A stretch of 64,000 nucleotides of DNA, from contig NZ_QKTV01000001.1 of assembly GCF_003362725.1 (NCBI RefSeq), positions 62,001 through 126,000 of the forward strand, read 5' to 3'. Below are positions 31,675 through 32,141 of the stretch, piece after piece. This DNA is from Winogradskyella aurantiaca (GTDB lineage: Bacteria; Bacteroidota; Bacteroidia; Flavobacteriales; Flavobacteriaceae). Made by a program: the position numbers and the translations under genes. Numbering within the stretch: position 1 is the first letter of the stretch; the number at the start of each line of letters is the position of its first letter. Below the pieces are notes generated by a model. It saw only the letters and a list, made by a program, of their open reading frames with translations, had not been told where the DNA came from and searched no databases.

Positions 31675-31775
31675 GGTTTAATCGATAAAAATGGGGCTTA
31701 ATCAGGTATTTTTTGCCTTTAATCCACAAAAGTTGCATTTCATCTAATAATTAGAACGGCTAATCAAAATAAGTC

Positions 31776-31783
31776 TAATTTAG
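31776..31783 (+). promoter_or_regulatory. Probable -7 box (TAATTTAG) of small RNA copy 1
   Basis: TAATTTAG differs from TAnnTTTG at one position and lies at exactly the same distance (12 bases from its first base to ACCATAAC) as the perfect box of copy 2. Confidence 0.5.
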
Positions 31784-31787
31784 TAGA

Positions 31788-31866
31788 ACCATAACATAAG
31801 TAGGTTAAGTTCATGGTAGATTTGGGGCAAAAAAAGGTGAATTTATTTCACCTTTTTTTATGCCCC
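31788..31866 (+). ncRNA. Small structured RNA, copy 1 (tandem pair), with terminator
   Basis: A 46-base block at 31788-31833 recurs at 32000-32045 with one difference. It folds as an 8-bp stem (ACCATAAC with GTT-c-ATGGT, one bulged base, 13-base loop ATAAGTAGGTTAA), a linker AGATTT, then GGGGC and a terminator: A7 GGTGAA / TTCACC T7. The outer GGGGC (31824-31828) can pair with GCCCC (31862-31866). No ORF of any length fits it, and no gene follows on this strand, so it is a free RNA rather than a riboswitch. The expected transcript is about 70-75 nt. It may belong to a described flavobacterial RNA motif such as Flavo-1, but I cannot confirm this. Together with copy 2 it fills the 490-base gap between purF and sodB. 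Confidence 0.7.
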
Positions 31867-31966
31867 TTTATTAATACTGCACTTCGCATTTGTATACCGT
31901 TCATCTAATAAATAAGTCGCACTCGACGCTTAGACTAATAATTGAGCCGTTTGTCCATAAATTTAA

Positions 31967-31995
31967 TTGGTCGAAATGGAATGCATATATATTTG
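31967..31995 (+). promoter_or_regulatory. Bacteroidota promoter (TTG-N18-TATATTTG) of small RNA copy 2
   Basis: A -33 TTG at 31967-31969 and a perfect -7 TATATTTG at 31988-31995 are separated by 18 bases, within the spacing usual for these phyla. The box ends 4 bases before the conserved RNA block, so transcription would start at about ACCATAAC. Confidence 0.7.
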
Positions 31996-31999
31996 ACTC

Positions 32000-32070
32000 A
32001 CCATAACATAAGTAGGTTAAGTTTATGGTAGATTTGGGGCAAAAAGGATGAACAGATGTTCATCCTTTTT
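32000..32070 (+). ncRNA. Small structured RNA, copy 2 (tandem pair), with terminator
   Basis: Second copy of the element: 45 of 46 bases match copy 1, and the one change (C to T) falls on the bulged base of the 5' stem, so the fold is kept. The terminator stem is different in sequence (AAAAAGGATGAAC / GTTCATCCTTTTT, 13 bp, loop AGAT), although it has the same layout. Conserved 5' domain with diverged but intact terminators, plus a separate promoter, indicates two independent RNA genes under selection. It faces the sodB terminator, so it does not regulate a downstream gene in cis. Confidence 0.7.
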
Positions 32071-32106
32071 CATTTTATACCAAGAGATCTTATAAAATCT
32101 GTATAG

Positions 32107-32141
32107 ACAAAAAAAATCCAGACAATAAGATGTCTGGATTT
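32107..32141 (-). terminator. Terminator of sodB
   Basis: On the minus strand, AAATCCAGACA pairs with TGTCTGGATTT (loop of 6), followed by a T run. It lies 24 bases after the sodB stop and faces the small RNA terminator. Confidence 0.85.

Follow-up and report, generated by a model that had tools for sequence, protein, structure and literature searches.

A tandem pair of putative small RNA genes beside purF in Winogradskyella aurantiaca and the predicted pairing of their Flavobacteriaceae-wide family with start codons

Between purF and a convergent sod gene in the genome of Winogradskyella aurantiaca, a block of 46 nt occurs twice on the same strand, and the question is what such a duplicated block does. 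The initial annotation had read the two blocks as a tandem of genes for free small RNAs, each preceded at the same distance by a −7 box and followed by a terminator of its own. Its coordinates were reproduced exactly in the window, i.e., the whole stretch of 64,000 nucleotides that was analysed: the blocks at 31788-31833 and 32000-32045 agree at 45 of 46 positions (98%), with 212 bases from start to start, and a box and a terminator were seen for each of them. The answer reached here, which we hold to be probable, is that the pair represents a trans-acting base-pairing sRNA found throughout the Flavobacteriaceae that would block translation initiation; we infer its transcription, the direction of regulation and the activator from the computed features set out below.

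Two putative tandem sRNA genes between purF and sod

The elements of the locus, in window coordinates, are the following.

ends 31674, + strand: purF, the upstream neighbour of the sRNA pair
31776..31783, + strand: −7 promoter box of copy 1, TAATTTAG, ending 4 bases 5′ of the block
31788..31866, + strand: putative sRNA gene copy 1, the invariant 41-nt core ACCATAACATAAGTAGGTTAAGTTCATGGTAGATTTGGGGC plus terminator; 76.4 bits with the covariance model
31829..31859, + strand: intrinsic terminator hairpin of copy 1, 13-bp arms
31988..31995, + strand: −7 promoter box of copy 2, TATATTTG, ending 4 bases 5′ of the block
32000..32073, + strand: putative sRNA gene copy 2, core plus terminator; 76.2 bits with the covariance model
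32041..32070, + strand: intrinsic terminator hairpin of copy 2, 14-bp arms
32773 to 32165, − strand: sod gene, convergent with the sRNA pair

The core of copy 2 differs from that of copy 1 by a single change, C to T at core position 25. The terminator of copy 1 is a GGTGAA/TTCACC stem with an A-run and a T-run, extendable by GGGGCA/TGCCCC. Folding z-scores against shuffled sequence are −5.5 for copy 1 and −4.3 for copy 2, and the predicted length of ~73-80 nt per sRNA fits the ~70 nt estimated earlier. As the initial annotation had also stated, the block is not explained by a reading frame, since no ORF of at least 100 aa overlaps the pair. An own promoter and an own terminator with no ORF mark both copies as putative intrinsically terminated sRNA genes. 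The concern that the block might be part of a longer insertion repeat was dispelled, because the similarity ends with the core and the two terminators differ. A genome-wide search for the core returned only these two copies, both in the window, and a third match that is the terminator hairpin read on the opposite strand. An inverted repeat further downstream, AAATCCAGACA/TGTCTGGATTT at 32108-32141 of the window, probably terminates the convergent sod gene.

Distribution of the family and its relation to registered RNAs

Conservation beyond this strain at the purF-sod locus, on which the initial annotation had made its reading depend, was found on a broad scale. The core pattern matched 27 of 60 relatives, nearly all of the same family and often in 2-6 tandem copies ~180-340 bases apart. 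A covariance model of 45 positions then recovered the sRNA from 123 of the 151 Flavobacteriaceae genomes (108 of the 126 of good quality), in 1-6 tandem copies that nearly always follow purF closely, and other families of the same order or class gave no convincing match to it; matches outside the Flavobacteriaceae, at 29.7 bits or less, were taken as chance. An exact-pattern scan of named genomes yielded at least 116 loci, including those of Aquimarina, Winogradskyella, Formosa, Salegentibacter and Flavobacterium. Among the matches listed (116 named loci), the sRNA lies within 2.5 kb of purF in 96, in all 96 on the purF strand, near sod in 89, and near one or both of these genes in 108.

Some 40 positions hardly vary among 252 copies, and the terminator arms vary freely; the column conservation of the −7 box in the same set reads TANNTTTG. 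An uninterrupted terminator stem of at least 7 bp is retained in 169 of 176 copies, with 63 distinct arms. The 5′ hairpin P1, ACCATRAC...GTTYATGGT, is nearly invariant as well; one of its pairs is changed on both sides, from A-U to G-C in one subfamily, and because so little varies the support from covariation is weak and was not relied on. Taken together, the conservation, the promoter and terminator anatomy, the recurring tandem arrays and the conserved complementary targets described below give good support to the reading as free tandem small RNA genes, presumably transcribed.

Diverged members of the family were also encountered. A first-copy sRNA that reads ACCATAAGGCG...AGGTCTATGGT, its hairpin altered in a compensatory way, is present at L005:1146, L049:3959, L121:1886, L139:4768 and L144:5857 (L numbers denote loci of relatives). 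A paralogue subtype with GGGACGAAAA in place of GGGGCAAAA and a different upstream region forms the last copies at L009, L018, L021, L022, L023 and L030, and L043:7583 and L117:3978 are of the same subtype; the upstream region is different in some last-copy paralogues, with a GGGACG tail. The subtype suggests a differently controlled copy.

The initial annotation had left it open whether the RNAs belong to a known motif, such as Flavo-1, or are new. In the covariance search against all of Rfam 15 that it had proposed, only a tRNA matched in the whole window at the gathering threshold, and only sub-threshold matches were returned for the sRNA pair at E≤10. Flavo-1 was missing even from the E≤10 list, which leaves that suggestion without support, and membership in FopS (RF04319) was rejected because its model gave 17.8 bits (E=3.2), far below the threshold of 56. 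The other suggestion, that the RNAs are new, holds against Rfam 15, where the family is apparently unregistered; Rfp18 of F. psychrophilum, which was compared by description only, may be of the same family. A literature search, with most subscription journals outside its reach, found no paper describing the family.

A microprotein and surface proteins as predicted partners

Partners of the RNA were sought by complementarity. When the reverse complement of the linker that follows P1 was searched in relatives, more sites were found than for a reversed control, and in several genomes two linker complements on the same strand, 37-40 nt apart, flanked the start codon of an ORF of ~41 codons. This is an unannotated gene for a microprotein of ~40 aa, which in most of the loci read lies downstream of scoB, facing an ABC-transporter gene in convergent orientation, and whose start codon is covered by the reverse complement of the sRNA core. 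In a second conserved candidate target the two complementary blocks lie at the start as well. In this genome the two are located as follows.

G000:C10:311466-311585 (L193:2363-2482), outside the window: microprotein gene, MKTNSNLPEPTFEKRLNEKLRHTSQFISGVFTLTKKLFML
G000:C24:150-644: CAP-domain lipoprotein, the domain named from its sequence

The microprotein mRNA of this genome would offer three tandem sites, two of them in the leader, with the second overlapping the start, and the third in the first codons. The computed duplex with the sRNA reaches −40.5 kcal/mol (RNAduplex; intramolecular structure is ignored in all duplex energies given here), compared with −29.2 kcal/mol for the best of the 63 ORF starts in the window. 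It ranks first of 405 start regions, the median of which is −17 kcal/mol. Four of these 405 reach −30 kcal/mol or lower, whereas twelve shuffled sRNAs gave 0.25 such regions on average; since the 405 come from a ~460 kb sample of the genome that was partly target-chosen and includes loci already found by pattern, only this contrast with the shuffled sRNAs is used, and it too was helped by the choice. Across relatives, pairing at z<−3 was obtained in 42 of 52 microprotein loci (a few genomes counted twice). In diverged loci of Aequorivita-like type (such genus-like labels were assigned by sequence similarity to named loci) the start codon lies inside a TTAACCTACTTATG-like sequence, and single-site leaders exist. 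Several diverged loci of Maribacter-like type pair weakly, with z of about −1.6 to −2.9, and are without 20-bp-spaced promoter boxes (see below). The Maribacter-like loci L224, L225, L227, L228, L233 and L243, without GCATTTCATC boxes, mostly have repeated TTCACAACA upstream, which suggests a changed regulator.

The microprotein was detected (E≤0.01) in 80 of the 123 genomes with the sRNA and in none of the 28 without it (p=2e-11, not phylogeny-corrected); in 43 of the 151 genomes the sRNA is present and the microprotein undetected at this threshold. Judged by its codon evolution, it is a real coding gene. Codons 13-42 evolve at a pN/pS of 0.37, and because this purifying selection acts outside the pairing codons, the product itself would matter; synonymous divergence is 0.30 in the pairing codons 2-12 versus 0.68 downstream. 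Neither Pfam nor NCBIfam has a name for the microprotein. An AlphaFold prediction gives one helix over residues 11-39 (mean pLDDT 77), the C-terminal helix is predicted to be amphipathic and cationic, and the mean hydropathy of the peptide in this genome is −0.48. Of the Flavobacteriaceae genomes searched, over half carry the family, which has a C-terminal LTKKxFML.

For the CAP lipoprotein, the leaders of 30 homologues tend toward ACCAAATCTAAATTTACCTACTTATG, with z<−3 in 12 and z<−2 in 21 of them, many pairing moderately (median −25 kcal/mol). Distant further homologues from genomes with the sRNA reach z≤−3.5 in 8 of 12 cases, and pairing was found in 0 of 8 homologues from two genomes without the sRNA (z −1.8 to +1.5). 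Start-region complementarity is thus conserved, and it is absent where the sRNA is absent, the negative control being these 8 CAP homologues of two genomes. In Aequorivita-like genomes the CAP leader CATCATGCCCCAAATTTGATG (L351-L354, L359, L360) forms a small hairpin that would hold the sRNA seed site in its loop.

Further candidate targets in this genome are a secreted protein of 2167 aa, in which 17 bases directly ahead of the start match perfectly, the paralogue adjoining it, and a metalloprotease of the M43 type whose C-terminus is T9SS-like and whose gene pairs among the best. Of the matches to the reverse-complemented core with one mismatch, many lie inside other genes, look random and were discarded. 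The start-site pattern alone gave 27 matches in this genome versus 97 for its reversed control, so that counts of the short motif were not taken as evidence, and only start-anchored long duplexes and conservation among homologues were used. The regulatory role surmised by the initial annotation takes from these results a specific form, namely computed pairing at the start codons of microprotein and surface-protein mRNAs, by an RNA whose transcription is itself presumed.

Shared promoter boxes, the proposed mechanism and its alternatives

Upstream of both sRNA copies, on the + strand, activator-like boxes can be recognised in the window.

31715..31724, + strand: upstream activator-like box 1 of copy 1, GCCTTTAATC, at the family-wide box position
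31735..31744, + strand: second activator-like box (box 2) upstream of copy 1, GCATTTCATC, at a distance of 20 bp from box 1 and at the family-wide position
31896..31905, + strand: extra box-like sequence upstream of copy 2, ACCGTTCATC, recognised by its letters only
31926..31935, + strand: weak upstream box 1 of copy 2, ACGCTTAGAC, at the position predicted from family spacing
31946..31955, + strand: upstream box 2 of copy 2, GCCGTTTGTC, which contains CCGTTTGTC

In the family, box positions upstream of the sRNAs show two maxima at a distance of 20 bp, with the consensus CGTTYRTCTAAAA; matches at 10 or more of 13 positions number 266, against 30 in shuffled upstream sequence. The same pair of boxes, spaced by 20-21 bp, precedes the microprotein gene in 33 of the 42 loci scoring at least 15. 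Binding sites of LytTR regulators consist of two direct repeats of ~9 bp with 11-13 bp between them (PMC6193735); for AlgR the site is CCGTTCGTC, of which CCGTTTGTC is the variant algD-RB3 (PMC4064291). The period of 20-21 bp agrees with such a LytTR promoter by resemblance, and the CCGTTTGTC upstream of copy 2 (31947-31955) is algD-RB3 letter for letter. The boxes of both genes thus resemble LytTR/AlgR-like sites (AgrA, AlgR) as direct repeats with a period of 20-22 bp near the promoter (PMC6193735, PMC4064291); they differ in that they extend into CTAAAA or CGA, and the assignment is one of sequence resemblance. In one relative (L247 976 +; G023:C2:381976), an anti-sRNA sequence, AACCTACTTATG, overlaps the start codon in a gene for a response regulator similar to the LytTR class, a possible feedback.

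The mechanism that we propose starts from an sRNA of ~75 nt, made up of the 5′ hairpin, a single-stranded GATTTGGGG linker and the intrinsic terminator. Its two seeds, CATAAGTAGGTTAA and GATTTGGGG, would pair antiparallel with leaders of the form CCCAAATC...TTAACCTACTTATG, in which ATG is the start codon, and the likely outcome of pairing over leader and start codon would be a block of translation initiation. The clients would be the microprotein mRNA, which is the most conserved target found, the CAP-domain lipoprotein and T9SS-type secreted proteins. Since paired boxes of ~10 bp, at a spacing of 20-21 bp, occur in the sRNA and the microprotein promoters alike, a single activator, which is probably a LytTR-type protein, may recognise the box pair and turn on both the sRNA array and the microprotein gene, which would create a feed-forward loop. 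Several tandem copies would presumably serve a higher dosage.

Other readings of the same data have to be weighed against this one. The microprotein mRNA might mainly serve to titrate the sRNA as a decoy or sponge, with the surface-protein mRNAs as the real clients; the two or three tandem complementary sites, instead of one, in many microprotein leaders and the apparent co-activation of both genes through the same boxes would fit, but the purifying selection outside the pairing codons and the single-site leaders of the Aequorivita-like type do not, and we regard this as unlikely. Somewhat less credence is given to activation, in which leader pairing would stabilise the mRNA or open the start site. 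A deletion of Rfp18 lowered two metalloprotease mRNAs (PMC9723704), and one of the best-pairing genes here encodes a secreted protease of the M43 type; however, in the microprotein and CAP genes the pairing covers the start codon itself, which is the usual geometry of repression, as for FopS on susC (PMC11697453).

A small peptide with a predicted amphipathic, cationic C-terminal helix and an sRNA pairing at its start also recall a type I toxin-antitoxin system such as IstR/TisB, with a membrane-active toxin and a trans-encoded antitoxin. The chromosomal, syntenic and apparently vertical conservation throughout the family and the additional unrelated targets are atypical for such systems, and with the mean hydropathy noted above they make this improbable. 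We would be more reluctant still to see the core as a protein-binding RNA that titrates a regulator in the manner of CsrB or RbpB, with target complementarity as a secondary matter. The near-absolute invariance of hairpin loop and linker does exceed what seed pairing usually needs, and multicopy arrays would suit such a role, but the same two complementary blocks stand in the right order at the start codons of unrelated genes and were not found in the homologues from the two sRNA-less genomes. To a non-functional repeat or mobile-element leftover, which the tandem, multicopy arrangement alone might bring to mind, we assign almost no probability, as core, locus and strand are fixed across genera and the terminators are variable yet intact.

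Start-codon blocking by a base-pairing sRNA, the reading preferred here, has parallels elsewhere. In Bacteroides, the FopS sRNAs act at the start codons of susC mRNAs (PMC11697453). FopS/GibS (RF04319) and the present family are alike as multicopy, paralogous Bacteroidota sRNAs of ~70 nt that end in a terminator hairpin, with seed pairing at the start codons of surface-protein mRNAs (PMC11697453), and the pairing computed here with the CAP lipoprotein, microprotein and T9SS-type genes would match the FopS mode of action. They differ in the lack of sequence or covariance-model homology and in further features of the sRNA described here, namely a hairpin at its 5′ end, arrays in tandem at a single locus, a core that hardly varies, and conserved predicted targets that are a microprotein and a lipoprotein; FopS is thus the closest functional analogue, without homology. 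Rfp18 is a conserved flavobacterial sRNA with metalloproteases and a secreted adhesin as predicted targets (PMC9723704), and, compared by description only, it resembles the present family, whose predicted targets include an M43 protease and large T9SS-type proteins. Rfp18 pairs through a third stem-loop; a single copy here has two stem-loops, and a tandem transcript would have more.

In more distant bacteria, sRNAs of the Qrr, LhrC and csRNA type are present in several near-identical copies, in tandem or scattered, with a regulator of their own. The multiple near-identical copies are shared with these, whereas phyla, sequences and regulators are different and no Rfam match was obtained. Trans-encoded type I antitoxins of the IstR type pair in the leader or at the start of a short-peptide mRNA encoded elsewhere, as is predicted here, but the present family has several other targets and family-wide syntenic conservation.

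Post-transcriptional regulation in Bacteroidota beyond Bacteroides has been little explored. The family offers a near-invariant sRNA of most Flavobacteriaceae with named, testable targets, i.e., a new microprotein family and a CAP lipoprotein, together with a candidate class of transcriptional activator. The chances seem to us evenly balanced that these form a core regulon of the whole family, in which one activator would turn on the sRNA array and a membrane-associated microprotein, and the same RNA would control many secreted and surface proteins by start-codon pairing. Because core and target leaders are so highly conserved, the outcome of a single genetic experiment in a tractable laboratory flavobacterium would be informative for more than 100 genera.
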